A stretch of DNA of 64,000 nucleotides, taken from the NCBI RefSeq assembly GCF_025685425.1, contig NZ_JAGTAS010000050.1:62001-126000 (forward strand), given 5' to 3'. The notes beneath the pieces are model-generated. The model did no database searches. It saw only the letters and a list, made by a program, of their open reading frames with translations, and was not told the origin of the DNA. Of this stretch, positions 8,941 to 60,430 are shown piece after piece. The position numbers were made by a program, and so were the translations under genes. The stretch comes from Terriglobus albidus. Its GTDB lineage: Bacteria > Acidobacteriota > Terriglobia > Terriglobales > Acidobacteriaceae. Position 1 is the stretch's first letter, and the number at the start of each line of letters is the position of its first letter.

Positions 8941-9033
8941 TATAGAGCGGGCCTTCAGCCCTTTTCAGCATTGTGGCCTGCTACCTGGGGCGTTGCCCCA
9001 GGCTGGTATAGAACGCGCCTTCAGCGCTTTTTG
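8941..9033. repeat. Extragenic palindromic repeat, family A copy 2
   Basis: Same three-palindrome layout as 112-205 (GGGCCTTCAGCCC, CCTGGGGCGTTGCCCCAGG, GCGCCTTCAGCGC). It occupies the gap between selO and the response regulator. Another small palindrome, CCACCCTAACTCC-GTGAGGGTGG, lies just beyond at 9064-9090 and resembles a sequence at 7222-7250. Confidence 0.7.
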
Positions 9034-23604: not shown

Positions 23605-23760
23605 GTGGGAGCCGTGGGCTTCAGCTCACGGTTACCGGTATTTATCGAAAAGGGCTTTTAGCCCTGGGCCTTCTCTGTCTGATCAGGGAAAAGCCCAGGG
23701 CTAAAAGCCCTTTTCTTTTTGCGTTGTATATCAGCGGGCTGAAGCCCCGCTGCTCCCACC
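23605..23760. repeat. Composite palindromic element, family B copy 1
   Basis: About 156 bases bounded by GTGGGAG and CTCCCAC. It contains three hairpins in order: CCGTGGGCTTCAGCTCACGG, a long central one (GGGCTTTTAGCCCTGGGC with its complement), and AGCGGGCTGAAGCCCCGCT. Related copies are at 49239-49389 and 61998-62142. It sits between the convergent ends of the PLP and GH29 genes and may also act as a bidirectional transcript end. Confidence 0.8.
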
Positions 23761-23774
23761 CGATCGAGGTAGTC

Positions 23775-30559: not shown

Positions 30560-30677
30560 GACTCTCCGAAAACGGGTTGAGCTGCGTTGATGCCGAGGGA
30601 AATTGATTAAAAGATAATCAATCTCATTCTAGAACTGTACGGCCATCACGTACGAAAACGCCAATTGATCGTTCTCA

Positions 30678-30789
30678 GAGCATTTTCCCTGTTGCTGGGT
30701 ATCCCGCAAGAGGAGTGCAGCGGCGTTTTCATTGCGGAAAACGCCCATAGATGAGGAAACCCTCCTCTACACCTACAGGCAAAATGCTG
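30678..30789 (+). repeat. 112-bp terminal-inverted-repeat element, copy 1
   Basis: Begins GAGCATTTTCCCTGTTGCTG and ends ACCTACAGGCAAAATGCTG, the reverse complement of the start with two changes. Internally GGCGTTTTC-ATTGCG-GAAAACGCC forms a nine-base stem. Other copies are at 54433-54544 (same orientation) and 60302-60412 (opposite). It has no coding content and resembles a MITE. It lies between the divergent HemD-GAF-ANTAR and nitrite reductase genes. Confidence 0.85.
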
Positions 30790-49238: not shown

Positions 49239-49389
49239 GTGGGAGCCGTGGGCTTCAGCTCACGGTTTACGAAGTCAGAAAATAGATTGGGCTTTAGCTC
49301 TGGGCCGTATTACAAAAGCAAAGGCCCAGGGCTAAAGCCCATCTACTTTTACATTTTTATCAGCGGGCTGGAAGCCCGCTGCTCCCACC
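49239..49389. repeat. Composite palindromic element, family B copy 2
   Basis: Same layout as 23605-23760: GTGGGAG, CCGTGGGCTTCAGCTCACGG, a central hairpin GGGCTTTAGCTCTGGGCC with GGCCCAGGGCTAAAGCCC, then AGCGGGCTGGAAGCCCGCT and CTCCCAC. It lies between the convergent mannonate dehydratase and GH31 genes. Confidence 0.8.
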
Positions 49390-49392
49390 CGG

Positions 49393-49440
49393 TCGAGCTT
49401 CGCTCGAATACCCAGGTCCCCGTGGGACCTGGGGCACACG
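49393..49440. repeat. Short double palindrome, family C copy 1
   Basis: TCGAGCTTCGCTCGA followed by CCCAGGTCCCCGTGGGACCTGGG and GGCAC. The second copy is at 60073-60122. It sits just before the end of the GH31 gene and may help end its transcript. Confidence 0.6.
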
Positions 49441-51984: not shown

Positions 51985-54159
51985 CTATTTCCCGTCCAGA
52001 TCCAGCATGTACAGGTTCCCGGTCGCCGTGCGGGCACGTACCAAGGGGACATTGTCTGGGGTGATGCCGGAGAAGAAGTAGTCTGCGATGTCGCCGGTAC
52101 GGAAGCTGGTCAGGCTGGCTACTTCTTCCAGTTTTCCGTCTGGGATGGAGACCCGGTAGATCGGCTGGGTATTGGCCATAAAGGCGTGCAGGTAGATCGC
52201 CCGGCTGTCTGCCGACCACACAGGGTCCGCCACGGAGGTGGTGGCGAGCGTCTTCCAGGTCTTCGCGGCTACGTCATAGAGCACCAGTCTGCGCTGATCC
52301 AGGCTGATGGCAGCGATGTAGCGGCCATCGGGAGACCAGCGTGGACTGAAGTAGCCGTCAGAGTTCGGAATCGCCTCGGTCTTATGTGTTTCCAGGTTCA
52401 GCAACTGCAGATTGCGGGGAGTGCTCTCCATGCCCATCAGGTCGGTGACCCGCCCGAAGACCAGGGTCTTGCCATCGGCCGACCACGAGGGATCGCCGGC
52501 GTTGCGATTCTCCTGCAGCAGGGCGATAGGGCTGCCGCCGTCTGCCTGAATCGCATAGAGCTGCCACGCCTTTCCGGGCTGGCGAGCCATCAGTGCGAGC
52601 TGCTGGCCATCGAGCGACCACTGGGCGAGGAAGACCTGCATCGACTCGGGCGTGAGCTGGATCTTTTCGGATCCATCTACGCGTGCCCTCCATAGCCTCC
52701 CTTGTGGGTCGGTCCAGGCAACCCATTGTGCGTCTCGCGAGTAAGTGACCCGGCTTGCATTAGCGAGGAAGGCTCGCTCCGGCAGAAACTCCTTGTGCGC
52801 GGCGTCGAAGCGTTGCAGCTCTGACCGGGAATCAAGGCCCAGGAAGAAGATGCGGTGTCCGCTGCGGGCGGCGACCGGAGCCTGGAAATCCAGTGGACCG
52901 TTTGTGATTTTTGTCGGCGCCGAGCCTCCATTGTCCTGCCACAGGTCGGTATTGCCGTCGTGCGAAGACTGGAAGATGTAGTACTTGCCGTCCGGCGTCC
53001 AGGTGCCGCAGCATTCGTTCGCAGGTTTCGACCAGTTAGCCAGCAGAGGCTTGGGTTTGCGTGACTTGGAATCTATCTCCCAGAGAGACTGAGTATGGGC
53101 GATAGGGTCCAGGATGGTGAACCGAAGCACCTTGCCATCGGGAGACCAGCGAAGCCAGAACGCCCGCCCGAACGGAAGCGTCGCGAACGGGGTCGAGGCG
53201 CCATCCTGTAGATGAGTGATGAAGAGTTGTGATCCGGCGGCGTACAGAATGCCGGAGCCATCCGGCATCCAGGTCGCATCGTGGGCATTGATATTAGCTA
53301 CCCGCAGCGCCGATCCGCCGCCGGTCGGAACCACCCATAACGGTTGTTCGGATTCAGGAGACAAATGGCTGCGCAGCAATAATTTGGAGCCATCCGGTGA
53401 GAGGTCGCCGAGCGACGGAGCGGCGATCTCGCTGGGTACCGGCAACGGCATGGTGTCGCCGGTATTCACGAAGACCTGTGACAGAATTGTGCGTCCGTTT
53501 TCGATCTGCCCGGTGAAGATGCGCACGCCATCGGTGACGGCCGAGGGAAAGCTTTCCATCGCTGGAGCCCCGGGGGAGATGCGGCCGTGATGGGTTAACT
53601 GGGTGATGCGGTCGGGCTCGTGCCGTCCATGGGACTGGCCAAGATAGAAGCCCACGCCCGCGGCTGCCAGAACAGCCATCAATCCGACGCCGGAGAGGAC
53701 GAAGCGAATGGTGCGTAGAGAGAAGACTCGTTTGCCAACGCTCTCCGCAGGTGCAGGAGATGCCTGTTCTTCAGAAAGAGCGGTTGCCGGCGCTGACGGA
53801 GCCTGCGCCACGGCTTGGACAGGATAGGTAACCGGGGCGATGAACCGGTAGCCGCGGCGAGCGAGGGTCTCTACAAACCTTGGATTGTCAGCGGAGTCGC
53901 TCAGGGCTTCGCGGATTTTATTAATAGCTGTGCCCAGCGAATGATCGAAGTCGACGATTGTGTCTTTGCCCCACAGCCGCTGCTGCAACTCTTCCCGGGA
54001 CACAACCTCACCCGGGCGCTCGAGCAAGATGCTGAGCACTTTGAAGGGCTGACTCTGGATTTTGATTCGGTGGCCAGCCTTCCAGAGCTCGCCCGATTGC
54101 AGATCGGCCTCATAGAGCCCGAAGGATACCCGGGATGGGCTCTGGACCGTGGGTGACAT
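51985..54159 (-). CDS. Membrane-bound winged-helix regulator with periplasmic PD40/TolB-like propeller
   Basis: CadC-like one-component regulator, 724 aa. The N-terminal OmpR/PhoB-type DNA-binding domain (about 8-105) has LYEADLQSGELWKAGHRIKI, VLSILLERPGEVVSREELQQ and FVETLARRGYRF. A Pro/Ala linker and one membrane helix follow (RFVLSGVGLMAVLAAAGVGFYLG). The periplasmic part is a WD40-like PD40 propeller with repeated WSPDG words (LRWSPDGKVLRF, PRWSPDGRYIAAI). ATG 54159 has GAGG nine bases upstream; the frame extends 74 codons more without family resemblance. The gene is divergent from the TonB receptor at 54420, so it likely controls that receptor and nearby hydrolases in response to a periplasmic ligand. 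Confidence 0.9.
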   Translation of the reverse strand: MSPTVQSPSRVSFGLYEADLQSGELWKAGHRIKIQSQPFKVLSILLERPGEVVSREELQQRLWGKDTIVDFDHSLGTAINKIREALSDSADNPRFVETLARRGYRFIAPVTYPVQAVAQAPSAPATALSEEQASPAPAESVGKRVFSLRTIRFVLSGVGLMAVLAAAGVGFYLGQSHGRHEPDRITQLTHHGRISPGAPAMESFPSAVTDGVRIFTGQIENGRTILSQVFVNTGDTMPLPVPSEIAAPSLGDLSPDGSKLLLRSHLSPESEQPLWVVPTGGGSALRVANINAHDATWMPDGSGILYAAGSQLFITHLQDGASTPFATLPFGRAFWLRWSPDGKVLRFTILDPIAHTQSLWEIDSKSRKPKPLLANWSKPANECCGTWTPDGKYYIFQSSHDGNTDLWQDNGGSAPTKITNGPLDFQAPVAARSGHRIFFLGLDSRSELQRFDAAHKEFLPERAFLANASRVTYSRDAQWVAWTDPQGRLWRARVDGSEKIQLTPESMQVFLAQWSLDGQQLALMARQPGKAWQLYAIQADGGSPIALLQENRNAGDPSWSADGKTLVFGRVTDLMGMESTPRNLQLLNLETHKTEAIPNSDGYFSPRWSPDGRYIAAISLDQRRLVLYDVAAKTWKTLATTSVADPVWSADSRAIYLHAFMANTQPIYRVSIPDGKLEEVASLTSFRTGDIADYFFSGITPDNVPLVRARTATGNLYMLDLDGK

Positions 54160-54419
54160 CTTACTTAACCTCGCGCCAATGACTGTATCACCGATGTGAA
54201 ACGGACGCGGTGCGAACCCCGGCAGTGGTTGATTGCATCCATACAAGCAGCTCAGAAATAAAGAGTTATCTGGTGAAGAAGAATTGAACGAAAAAAGGCG
54301 GGGTGTGGATTGCGATGAGTCGTGCGAAGGCGACATGGTTCGCATCGCAGCCTGAATTTCCCCATTTTTGCGGACACCCATCCGCGCGGAGGAACAGGCG
54401 GCCTTTTGGAGGCACGTTT

Positions 54420-57400
54420 ATGAAGACGAATAGAGCATTTTCCCTGTTGCTGGGTATGCCGGAAGAGGAGTGCAGCGGCGTTTTCTTTGCGGAAAACGCC
54501 CATAGATGCGGAAGCCCTACTCTACACCTACAGGGAAAATGCTCCCGCCCTGAGATAAGAAGAGGGTTTGCCGGAGTTTGGATTGCCATGGCTCTCTGCC
54601 TGGCGATACTGTTCCCCGGTCAACTTCCGGCACAATCCGACACAGGACGTGTGACCGGAACGGTAACCGACGCGACTGGAGCTGTGATTCCCGGGGCGAC
54701 CGTAACCCTGGTCAACACTGACACCGGCGCCACCCAGACGGCGACCACCAACGGAGAGGGCTTCTATAACTTCTCGGCCGTGGTTCGCGGTAACTACCGC
54801 GTCGATGCCGCGATGACCGGGTTCGCCAAGAACACGCAGACTTTCGTCCTCCAGGTCTCTCAGGTGGAGACCGCCGACTTCCATCTCGCTCCCGGCGAGC
54901 AAAGCACCACGATCGATGTCACTTCGGCTGCTCCGGTTGTGAATCTCTCTACTTCCTCTACCGGGGCGGTAGTCGAAGGCCGCCAGGTGACGGAGCTTCC
55001 GATCAACGGACGCAACTTTACCCAGTTGGCCACGTTGGTTCCAGGTGTGACGCGCGGCGCGTTTTCGAGTGATGCCTCCGGACGCAATGGCAACTCTGAG
55101 ACCTTCCGATACAGCGACAGCGGCGGCGCCGCAATCTCCGCCAATGGCATGCGTCAGCAGGCGAACAACTTCCTGCTCGACGGTACGGACAACAATGAGT
55201 CACTGGTCAACGGCATTGTCTTCTTCACTCCGCCGGAGGCGATTCAGGAGTTCCGCGTCGATACTTCGGTGGCTCCTGCTGAGTTTGGCCGCGCCGGCGG
55301 AGCGATCATCAACACCTCGGTGAAGTCAGGCACGAATGCGATTCACGGCTCTCTCTTCGGCTACTACCGCAGCGCCGCCTTCGATGCCAACCCGAACTAC
55401 TTCAACCCGACCGCGGCGAAGCCTTCCTTCCAACGGAAGCAACTCGGCTTTGCTGCCGGCGGACCGATCTGGAAGGACAAGATCTTCCTCTTCGGCGACT
55501 ACCAGGCACTGCGTTTGCGGCAGCCGCAGGATACCGGTTATCACACGGTGCCAACAGCGCGTATGCGTACCGGCGACTTCGGTGAACTATTGGGGCAGAA
55601 TGTCACTACGGTTCCGGATGCAACGTTGACCGGTTGTACGGCGGTAAAGGTTGTCGGCGCGATCTATGACCCAACCACCTGCCTTCCCTTCACGAATAAC
55701 GTGATTCCAACGGCACGCCAGACCAAGGCCGCGATCAACTATCTGAATGCGTATCCGCTGCCTTCACGTGGCGGCCTGATCAATAACTACTACGTGGTGC
55801 GCAATCAGATCCGTAACTTCAACGACTTCGACGGACGTATCGACTTCCGTATCTCACAGAAGGACTCGGTCTTTGCCCGCTACAGTTATGGGCAGGACAA
55901 CTTCGACGTCAACAGCGAGTTCACCAATCTGCCGGCAGGCTTTGCATCAGGTGCGAATGTCAGCCATCCGCGCGGTGTTGCCGCAGGGTACACGCGTATC
56001 TTTACCGCGAACCTCGTCAATGAATTCCGCTTCGGATATGTTCGTCCGCAGTTTGGCTACATCCCTCCGATGTTTGGAACGCCGGTCTCGCAGAATCTGG
56101 GAATCGTGAATGCGAACCGCAATGCGCTGCTCGGTGGTGGAGCTCTGATCGGCGGCAGCAATACACAGATTGAGTACACCGGTGACGGTGGACCGTATAA
56201 CGTCCCTGAGAAGACCTACCAGTATGCTGATTCTCTGAGCTGGACTCATGGCAATCATGCCTTCAAGTTCGGCGCGAATGTCATTCGCCGTCGAGTGGAC
56301 TTCTTCCAGGGCAACAACGCCAAGGGTTACTTCATCATTGGCGGCGTGAACTATCCGGGAACGGGCCGCTTTACCGGTTACGAAACCAGCGAACTGGTCG
56401 CCGGCTTTACCGACTACCGCATCGGTTCGGCCAGCACCTACTTCAAGACTTTCAGCTGGGAGACCGGTTACTTTGCCCAGGACGACTGGAAGGTAAATCG
56501 CCGCCTGACGCTGAACCTCGGTCTTCGTTACGACCTCTATACCTATCCGTACGAGCAGGACAACAACCAGTCCAACTACGATGTTGCGGCAGGCATTCTG
56601 CGTGTCGCCGGAACCAACGGCAACTCGCGCAGCCTGATCGATACGGACAAAAACAACTTCGCTCCCCGGTTCGGCTTCGCTTATGACCTCTTCGGCAATG
56701 GCCGCACCTCGTTGCGTGGCGGTTACGGCATCTTCTACTTTGTTGATCGTGGCGGAGTCGGTAATCAGTTGAGCAACAATCCCGGCTACAACGGCTTCAG
56801 CGAATATCGTGCGACCGATGGCTATCGCATCACCTTCATGGGACAGGGCGCGCTGCGGGATAACAACAGCACGCATGCGACGAATGCCCTGCCGCTGCCG
56901 CAGTTCGGGCCTGGCTCGGTGAATCTGAATAATCCAACCAACGTCGGTCTGATCGCGCAGCCGAAGAACAGTCAGAACAGCATGGCGCAGAGCTGGAATC
57001 TGCAGATCCAGCAGCAGCTTGACCGTGCCACCAGCGTCAACCTGGCCTACGTCGGCACCAAGAGCGATCACCTGATGACGTGGTTCAACCTGAACTCGCC
57101 TGTGATCGGTGGTACGGGAAGCGGTTTGTATCCGAACCGCGGCACCATTACCTACGGTCTGGCAGGGGGTTCTGGAAACTACAATGGCCTGCAGATCTTC
57201 GTGAATCGGCAGATGTCGGCCGGCCTGCTTGCGACCGTTGCCTATACCTGGTCGCATACGCTCGATAACTCAAACGGCGCGTTCAAAAGCGGTACCTCGG
57301 ATGCCGGCGCACGTATCTTCATCATGCCCAGCGGTCCGAACCTGCGGGCGAATTACGGCAATAGCGACCAGGACCAGCGTCATGTCTTCACCGCGAGCGC

Positions 57401-57938
57401 TCTCTATCAGCTTCCGTTCGGACGTGGGCGCACCTTCGGCCGCAATATGAATCGTGCGCTCGACGAGGTGATCGGTGGATGGCAGACGAATACGATCACG
57501 TCGTTCGCCAGCGGCACGCCGATCGATATCAACTTAAATGGCGGAACAATTGATATCCGCCCTGACCTGATCTCATTCCAGAAGGTGGCTCGGTCACGGA
57601 TTACCGGTGCAGTCAATACCGGCAACCAGACCTATTTCAATGCCGTGGTGAAAGCGCCTCCCATCAATGCTTCCAACATGTACACCCGCATCGGAACCCT
57701 GAGCCGTAATAAGTTCACCGGACCTGGCTATAACAAGGTGGACTTCTCGGTCTTCAAGAACTTCTCCATTACAGAGCGGGTAAAGGCAGAGTTCCGGGCC
57801 CAGGCATACAACGTCTTCAATCACCCGCAGTTCAGCAATCCGCAGACGAATGCAGCGCAGGCGGACTTCGGAACGATCAACAGCATTCGTCAATACTCCG
57901 AGCGCCAGTTCGAGCTCGCGGGACACATCAACTTCTAA
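54420..57938 (+). CDS. Oar-like TonB-dependent receptor whose N-terminus contains a 112-bp repeat
   Basis: Outer-membrane receptor, 1172 aa from ATG 54420, which has GGAGG seven bases upstream. After MKTN the frame reads through the 112-bp repeat, then the real signal peptide core appears (RPEIRRGFAGVWIAMALCLA, ILFPGQLPAQ). The carboxypeptidase-type domain follows (VTGTVTDATGAVIPGATVTL), then plug (VTELPINGRNFTQLATLVPG) and a barrel ending LAGHINF. The signal peptide thus has an n-region of about 50 residues. Use of an internal ATG at 54588 (MALCLAILF) would give a signal without basic residues. Divergent from the PD40 regulator and followed by GH13, so an alpha-glucan ligand is plausible but not shown. 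Confidence 0.9.
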   Translation: MKTNRAFSLLLGMPEEECSGVFFAENAHRCGSPTLHLQGKCSRPEIRRGFAGVWIAMALCLAILFPGQLPAQSDTGRVTGTVTDATGAVIPGATVTLVNTDTGATQTATTNGEGFYNFSAVVRGNYRVDAAMTGFAKNTQTFVLQVSQVETADFHLAPGEQSTTIDVTSAAPVVNLSTSSTGAVVEGRQVTELPINGRNFTQLATLVPGVTRGAFSSDASGRNGNSETFRYSDSGGAAISANGMRQQANNFLLDGTDNNESLVNGIVFFTPPEAIQEFRVDTSVAPAEFGRAGGAIINTSVKSGTNAIHGSLFGYYRSAAFDANPNYFNPTAAKPSFQRKQLGFAAGGPIWKDKIFLFGDYQALRLRQPQDTGYHTVPTARMRTGDFGELLGQNVTTVPDATLTGCTAVKVVGAIYDPTTCLPFTNNVIPTARQTKAAINYLNAYPLPSRGGLINNYYVVRNQIRNFNDFDGRIDFRISQKDSVFARYSYGQDNFDVNSEFTNLPAGFASGANVSHPRGVAAGYTRIFTANLVNEFRFGYVRPQFGYIPPMFGTPVSQNLGIVNANRNALLGGGALIGGSNTQIEYTGDGGPYNVPEKTYQYADSLSWTHGNHAFKFGANVIRRRVDFFQGNNAKGYFIIGGVNYPGTGRFTGYETSELVAGFTDYRIGSASTYFKTFSWETGYFAQDDWKVNRRLTLNLGLRYDLYTYPYEQDNNQSNYDVAAGILRVAGTNGNSRSLIDTDKNNFAPRFGFAYDLFGNGRTSLRGGYGIFYFVDRGGVGNQLSNNPGYNGFSEYRATDGYRITFMGQGALRDNNSTHATNALPLPQFGPGSVNLNNPTNVGLIAQPKNSQNSMAQSWNLQIQQQLDRATSVNLAYVGTKSDHLMTWFNLNSPVIGGTGSGLYPNRGTITYGLAGGSGNYNGLQIFVNRQMSAGLLATVAYTWSHTLDNSNGAFKSGTSDAGARIFIMPSGPNLRANYGNSDQDQRHVFTASALYQLPFGRGRTFGRNMNRALDEVIGGWQTNTITSFASGTPIDINLNGGTIDIRPDLISFQKVARSRITGAVNTGNQTYFNAVVKAPPINASNMYTRIGTLSRNKFTGPGYNKVDFSVFKNFSITERVKAEFRAQAYNVFNHPQFSNPQTNAAQADFGTINSIRQYSERQFELAGHINF
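54433..54544 (+). repeat. 112-bp terminal-inverted-repeat element, copy 2, inside the TonB receptor reading frame
   Basis: Exact 15-base terminal inverted repeats: GAGCATTTTCCCTGT at the left and its complement at the right. The interior matches 30678-30789 closely. It begins after only four to five codons of the receptor gene (ATG 54420) and contains no stop in that frame, so it is translated as RAFSLLLGMPEEECSG and onward to about GKC. No target-site duplication is clear. Confidence 0.88.
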
Positions 57939-60276: not shown

Positions 60277-60301
60277 TTCATACTTATGTGCAGAACCGCT
60301 G

Positions 60302-60412
60302 GAGCATTTTCCCTGTAGGTGTGGAGTAGGGCTTCCGCATCTATGGGCGTTTTCCGCAATGAAAACGCCACGGGACTCCCATTCCGGGATACCCTGCAAC
60401 AGGAAAATGCTC
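60302..60412 (-). repeat. Terminal-inverted-repeat element, copy 3 (opposite orientation)
   Basis: GAGCATTTTCCCTGTAGGTG at the left and CAACAGGAAAATGCTC at the right; the interior is the reverse complement of copies 1 and 2 with scattered changes (111 bases). It ends 18 bases before the GH1 start codon. The GH1 ribosome site (AAAGGAG) begins two bases beyond the element, so any older promoter of GH1 has been separated from the gene. Confidence 0.85.
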
Positions 60413-60430
60413 TAAAAGGAGTTTGCTGAG

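Follow-up and report, generated by a model that had tools for sequence, protein, structure and literature searches.

We found a MITE-like palindromic element in frame within the first codons of a gene for an outer-membrane receptor, between the start codon and the hydrophobic core of the signal peptide. It is one of six N-terminal fusions that are backed by empty orthologues (the focal case and five others), all within one third of the genome. In the reading that we prefer, and consider quite probable, a MITE inserted in frame in the codons of the n-region, the ribosome would read through it, and the mature receptor would be unchanged.

The insertion at the receptor gene

The window (the whole stretch of 64,000 nt that we analysed) lies on contig C58 of the host genome, G000, which has 6.1 Mb. 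The features of the receptor locus are listed by position.

54408..54412, plus strand: Shine-Dalgarno site GGAGG of the receptor gene, read in the sequence; kept in G001 and G008, and as GGAGG in G018
54420..54422, plus strand: ATG start codon 5' of the element; identical ATG in three element-free congeners
54420..57938, plus strand: gene for an Oar-type / TonB-receptor-like outer-membrane protein of 1172 aa (open reading frame, Pfam domains, dN/dS)
54431..54432, plus strand: left TA of the target-site duplication, from the empty sites
54433..54544, plus strand: palindromic, MITE-like element of 112 bp with 96% identity to the family consensus
54433..54447, plus strand: left terminal inverted repeat GAGCATTTTCCCTGT, read in the sequence
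54478..54501, plus strand: inner hairpin GGCGTTTTCTTTGCGGAAAACGCC of the element, from sequence and folding
54530..54544, plus strand: right terminal inverted repeat ACAGGGAAAATGCTC, read in the sequence
54545..54546, plus strand: right position of the target duplication, CC here and TA in the model; the length fits a 114-bp insertion on alignment to the empty sites
54576..54611, plus strand: codons of the signal-peptide hydrophobic core VWIAMALCLAIL, residues 53-64, from a hydropathy scan of filled and empty orthologues
54588..54590, plus strand: in-frame ATG inside the hydrophobic core, chosen as start by our in-house gene model and unlikely to be the true one

The sequence-only reading had described a 112-bp repeat with exact 15-base inverted ends inside a receptor gene, behind a well-supported ATG, and both points held at 54433-54544 and at ATG 54420, which shares its Shine-Dalgarno site with the three congeners. 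The element starts 13 nt after the start codon, counted from the A of the ATG. Its inverted ends are exact over 15 bp, and the 20-bp arms agree at 90%.

A Pfam search of the focal protein gave CarboxypepD_reg (PF13620, E 1.5e-20) and then an outer-membrane beta barrel, OMP_b-brl_4 (PF25183, E 3.3e-225), as in Oar-type, TonB-dependent-receptor-like proteins; no separate plug-domain match was listed at E 1e-5. Oar-type products like this one are usually annotated as TonB-dependent receptors. The nearest named record belongs to Acidobacteriaceae bacterium Bin6.3 (96%), followed by Edaphobacter and Granulicella proteins (67-68%).

A DNA search of 19 genomes of the genus found an element-free version of the locus in G001, G008 and G018. 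The N-termini there read MKTTNSPETRRGFAGVW, MKTTHSPETRKGFAGVW and MTSTHSPAVIRMGIPGW, and alignment to them resolves the N-terminus in the window as MKTN-[RAFSLLLGMPEEECSGVFFAENAHRCGSPTLHLQGKCS]-RPEIRRGFAGVW. Because these three congeners lack the repeat and show empty sites, the focal repeat is, judged from the alignment, an insertion into an ancestral gene. The ancestral target in the empty sites is ACATAGCCCTGAG, so the insertion struck a TA; by the same comparison the left TA is retained and the right copy is mutated to CC. The gene gained 114 nt and lost one codon (3 nt) beside the insertion, and the protein has 1172 aa, where the orthologues have 1135-1136. The reading frame stays open across the element, and the gain of 37 residues agrees with the figure of about 37 without a stop that had been read from the window. 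An n-region of about 50 residues had also been proposed, and the predicted hydrophobic core does begin at residue 53, vs 17-22 in the orthologues checked.

Comparison with orthologues lacking the element had been suggested as a check, and it bears on whether the protein had its extra N-terminus ancestrally. The three congeners lack it with aligned starts, and the inserted DNA is a repeat of several hundred copies, so we give an ancestral origin practically no probability.

The focal gene has no frameshift or stop across 1172 codons. Over 1135 codons, dN/dS is 0.041 vs G001 and 0.036 vs G008 (overall range 0.036-0.045), and 0.029 for G001 vs G008. These low gene-wide values mostly cover time before the insertion, because the insertion is young (96% of the consensus) and was seen in one genome only. 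Branch values derived from the pairwise ones are slightly higher for the window lineage (~0.047 vs ~0.03), and a raised substitution rate after the insertion is slight at best on these data.

Two observations concern the DNA next to the gene. The leader upstream of it (window 54206-54420) is conserved at ~90% in G001 and G008, a level equal to that of coding DNA, which suggests a conserved promoter or regulatory leader. A divergent neighbouring ORF of up to 798 aa (window 51985-54381, minus strand) lies beside the Oar-type gene; by eye its product resembles a DNA-binding region at the N-terminus with TolB-like beta-propeller repeats after it.

The element family and its relatives

Two further copies lie in the window.

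30677..30788, plus strand: second copy, intergenic, 94% identical; also present in G001 and empty in G008 (TA target)
60301..60415, minus strand: third copy; empty in G001 and G008 (TA target)

In the genome of the host, a soil acidobacterium, a half-end pattern with at most one mismatch gave 495 matches, and its reversed control gave 0. BLAST gave at least 57 strong matches to the element among the first 40 of 435 candidates scored. A profile search of 2.06 Mb, about one third of the genome (the window, C28:1-1.2 Mb, C39:1-400 kb and C50:1-400 kb), found 155 distinct copies, of which 137 reach at least ~100 bp. The density of ~75 per Mb extrapolates to ~460 copies per genome. Terminal inverted repeats across the family are 15-17 bp. 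A TA flanks both termini in 76 of 119 near-full-length copies. Copies match the consensus at a median of 90%, below the value for the focal copy. The consensus has a predicted fold of ~-51 kcal/mol and the focal element alone one of ~-49 kcal/mol. Clean TA empty sites at six other copies (window 30677, window 60301, and the TBDR2, TBDR3, RND adaptor and amidase genes described below) confirm, on the evidence of these alignments, that the family uses TA target duplication.

Within the genus, G000, G001, G008 and G010 are rich in copies, and most other genomes have none or very few. A search at the family level found matches in 41 of 398 genomes; outside the genus the identity reaches 85%.

Terminal pairs 12/105 and 13/104 have both arms changed together in 11-13 copies (e.g. 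TTCAC/GTGAA), which suggests either subfamilies whose arms match or a correction of one arm by the other. There are also head-to-tail arrays of 2-4 units in G000 (C39:265263-265719, C39:268761-269101 and C50:368694-369136), with a 114-116 bp period and a distinct junction, CTAATCGCATTTT.

The element has what defines a MITE: terminal inverted repeats, many dispersed copies, target duplication with empty sites, and, at 112 bp, no capacity to code for its own transposase. The best reading is a non-autonomous, TA-targeting, palindromic MITE-like family of Acidobacteriaceae. Of the features expected for a MITE derived from IS630/Tc1-mariner, the TA target duplication is present and ends in common with an IS630-type transposon were not found. 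We rejected the IS630 elements of the genome itself as mobilisers: PF13358 loci in G000 and G001 end in TTGATTCCTGC / TTGCTTCCTGC, which are not the ends of the element. No transposon-sized pair of element ends was recognised within the 2 Mb sampled, and a long autonomous relative with these ends was dropped as a candidate, with just one 419-bp pair in 2 Mb. Y1_Tnp genes gave 10 matches in G000; symmetrical ends with a TA duplication speak against a REP, or RAYT-mobilised, repeat, a type defined as a short hairpin that carries a conserved tetranucleotide on one side and sits beside a Y1 transposase gene. No Rfam family matched this stretch up to E 0.1, and we discarded a known RNA family as the identity of the element.

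RPE, ERIC/RU-1 and the 107-bp Correia element are established examples of bacterial MITEs that fuse in frame to genes (PMC2229807, PMC2759123, PMC10969869). The Rickettsia palindromic elements (RPE) are palindromic repeats of ~105-150 bp with a stable stem-loop, often in frame in unrelated protein genes; they are tolerated in proteins, and the gmk product is active (PMC2229807, PMC10969869). In-frame insertion in protein genes with a stable stem-loop is likewise a trait of the acidobacterial element. The two, likened by description only, belong to different lineages. RPE are found anywhere in a protein, whereas acidobacterial copies are overwhelmingly intergenic and most of those in genes fall at signal-peptide n-regions. 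For the acidobacterial element the TA target duplication is clear; for RPE it is uncertain.

ERIC/RU-1 and Correia/NEMIS resemble our element, again by description, in length (~100-130 bp), TA termini, target-site duplication and mostly intergenic location, and they form occasional in-frame fusions, including in genes with signal peptides (PMC2759123, PMC2229807). They come from other phyla, and the acidobacterial ends differ (GAGCATTTTCCCTGT, 15-17 bp). RUP of Streptococcus pneumoniae, a MITE mobilised by IS630-Spn1, is similar in being 107 bp long, TA-targeted and intergenic (PMC2229807). However, RUP is closed by stops in every frame and a candidate transposase is known for it, and here no transposon with matching ends was found. 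A literature search joining MITEs, Acidobacteria, inverted repeats and IS630 found no paper. As far as we searched, this family from acidobacteria appears to be new, as does the clustering of its in-gene copies at n-regions.

Insertions ahead of signal-peptide cores

Gene calls came from a simple in-house hexamer gene model, with one genome per species and partly from metagenome assemblies. By this model 83% of the sampled DNA is coding, and only 2 of the 155 copies lie inside gene models. The model sets starts 3' of elements, and N-terminal fusions were therefore sought separately. Together this gave ~8 of 155 sampled copies in genes; 6 of the 8, all in genes for exported proteins, fall after the start codon and before the signal-peptide core. 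Under a null of even spread over coding DNA, the chance that 6 of 8 in-gene copies fall in the first 20 codons is P ~3e-7, a value that is indicative only because the search for N-terminal fusions was partly directed, more so than the search for internal ones. The five cases besides the receptor in the window all have an in-frame element before the core.

C28:1129296: TBDR2, an Oar-type receptor; ancestral MTIKRFGFVFLLLACVC
C28:336568: TBDR3, an Oar-type receptor; ancestral MVRYMLLKKIARSLGSAAF
C28:376701: SAM-HAT protein; ancestral (M)RVFRYLALLLLV
C28:1081935: HlyD/RND adaptor lipoprotein; ancestral MTRWYAAAAMAAVML
C28:1058882: N-acetylmuramoyl-L-alanine amidase; ancestral MPWTKTVLFAAAAL

An all-frame scan through every copy found just one internal fusion with coding-like flanks. 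One of the two copies inside gene models is in a lytic transglycosylase (G000 C28:14544-14621, L091), where a partial copy adds 27 in-frame residues in a linker; the insertion is missing from the G001 and G008 orthologues. The second gene-model copy is at the C-terminal end of a putative gene at C28:274595. By reading, we judged the copies at C28:115107, C39:190557, C50:192954 and C28:947550 to be upstream of the real start and rejected them as fusions. A pattern scan of four genomes for more N-terminal fusions returned mostly chance matches to the short end pattern, and among the loci returned long frames recurred for the adaptor and TBDR2 cases only. About 15% of random copies are expected to keep a given frame both in register and open, which makes special design unnecessary.

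In all six fusions the frame is continuous from the ancestral start, via the element, into an unchanged hydrophobic core. The n-region goes from 5-21 to 41-55 residues and, ahead of the core, retains a positive net charge. G000, G001, G008 and G010 all have the adaptor and amidase insertions, which are open in frame in these four, and both sites are empty in G018. The adaptor copies have no indel in the four species; the adaptor start overlaps the stop of the upstream gene (GTGATGA), likewise in G018. The amidase copies have +6 nt in G008 and -3 nt in G010 and are still open, and their other frames have gained stops in at least one species. TBDR2 carries its insertion in frame in G000, G008 and G010 and is empty in G001, although the frame in the G010 assembly ends at a stop after 187 codons. 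Inside the shared adaptor element dN/dS is not low (~0.3-0.7, and >1 in one pair), so it is the frame that is retained and not the peptide sequence. This is as expected for a spacer that would be translated and then discarded.

At the amidase locus (G000 C28:1058882-1058996, L278; relatives L361, L363, L369, L370) the insertion struck the TAA stop of an overlapping upstream gene. The element's own TAG restores that stop, and both reading frames were kept by one insertion.

Translation, export and retention

The best reading of the start site is that the ribosome would pass through the element from the ancestral ATG. The sequence-only reading had allowed that translation now starts downstream. 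Candidate starts would be ATG 54588 or, inside the element, ATG 54456, and the element would then be effectively 5' untranslated. Our gene model does pick 54588, the only in-frame ATG, GTG or TTG between the element and the end of the core; a private C-to-G change creates the in-frame ATG at residue 13 (GGTATGCCG, consensus GGTATCCCG), and antisense copies carry an in-frame ATGAAAACG. However, 54588 sits inside the hydrophobic core, so its product would lose the positive n-region. No Shine-Dalgarno site was seen before it, and the ancestral Shine-Dalgarno site and ATG are intact. The amidase also speaks against a downstream start, as in G000 it has zero in-frame ATG, GTG or TTG between element and core, and its indels across four species are frame-keeping only. 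We think a new start very unlikely.

A second alternative is that the focal insertion is recent and mildly or strongly harmful, with the receptor poorly made or exported and the gene being lost. Its presence in one genome only, the slightly raised branch dN/dS, and a strong hairpin (~-49 kcal/mol) that starts 13 nt after the A of the ATG would fit. Predicted pairing at the Shine-Dalgarno site and ATG is nonetheless 0.59, similar to 0.47-0.74 in the orthologues, and we rejected a hairpin that blocks the start. The 1172 codons are free of frameshifts and stops, and equivalent insertions outlived speciation in the adaptor, amidase and TBDR2 genes. We regard a harmful insertion as unlikely, and the earlier suggestion that the insertion is tolerated is well supported by the intact gene (dN/dS ~0.04) and by sister insertions in frame across species.

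We have a proposal for how an in-frame, read-through insertion would arise and persist. A putative, possibly IS630-like, transposase would insert the element at a TA, and element and duplicated TA together, 114 bp, would by chance be open in the receptor frame. Translation would start at the ancestral ATG, with the ribosome unwinding the element hairpin while reading through, and the product would be a receptor with a ~52-residue, net-positive n-region before a hydrophobic core that is unchanged. Cleavage by signal peptidase would then take away the element-encoded peptide along with the signal peptide, leaving the mature protein unaltered. Nearly all in-gene insertions would be purged; because the n-region is variable and cleaved off, it would tolerate insertions, and most surviving in-gene copies would be found there, where the extra residues depart with the signal peptide. 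From the sequence comparisons we infer translation through the element, export and cleavage, and this selective reason.

Alternatively, the element may be kept for a tuning effect of its hairpin, or of the long n-region, on expression or export, as a functional extended signal peptide. Three of the six cases are Oar-type receptors, large proteins where export timing could matter, and two insertions are retained in four species. Against this, the peptide sequence of the adaptor element is unconserved, and unrelated small periplasmic enzymes are among the cases; we consider tuning improbable.

Autotransporters have an extended signal peptide region, which is a long n-region ahead of the hydrophobic core. 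The receptor had been likened to it, and the likeness stands for length alone; by origin the inserted peptide here would be a translated MITE, and it is unconserved as a peptide. The BKC-1 beta-lactamase has a 46-residue signal peptide that was lengthened by a recent insertion and still exports (PMC8262980). There the insertion is a 16-residue duplication in the hydrophobic region, in contrast to a mobile element in the n-region here.

Surviving in-frame MITE fusions are usually described as scattered, whereas here they are mainly in one place, from the start codon to the signal-peptide core. This points to a simple rule, that a part of a protein that is cut off can bear an insertion. More broadly, the n-region could be a general safe harbour, with insertions kept for speciation-scale times since n-regions of ~50 residues, or the hairpin in their codons, would be of use by shifting when, or how much, envelope protein is exported; we hold this to be a long shot. 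For annotation, the true start would lie 5' of the element, and in the focal gene our simple gene model picked a wrong one. A core that starts after residue 40-55 may be missed when signal peptides are predicted from the first residues. The shared insertions, some with in-frame indels, offer a natural test of the maximum length of a bacterial n-region.

The window also holds two other repeats. One of 54 nt occurs at 152-205 and 8980-9033, with the two copies 96% identical (GCTACCTGGGGCGTTGCCCCAGG...), and one of 40 nt occurs at 23729-23768 and 49358-49397, 90% identical (TATCAGCGGGCTGAAGCCCCGCTGCTCCCACCC).
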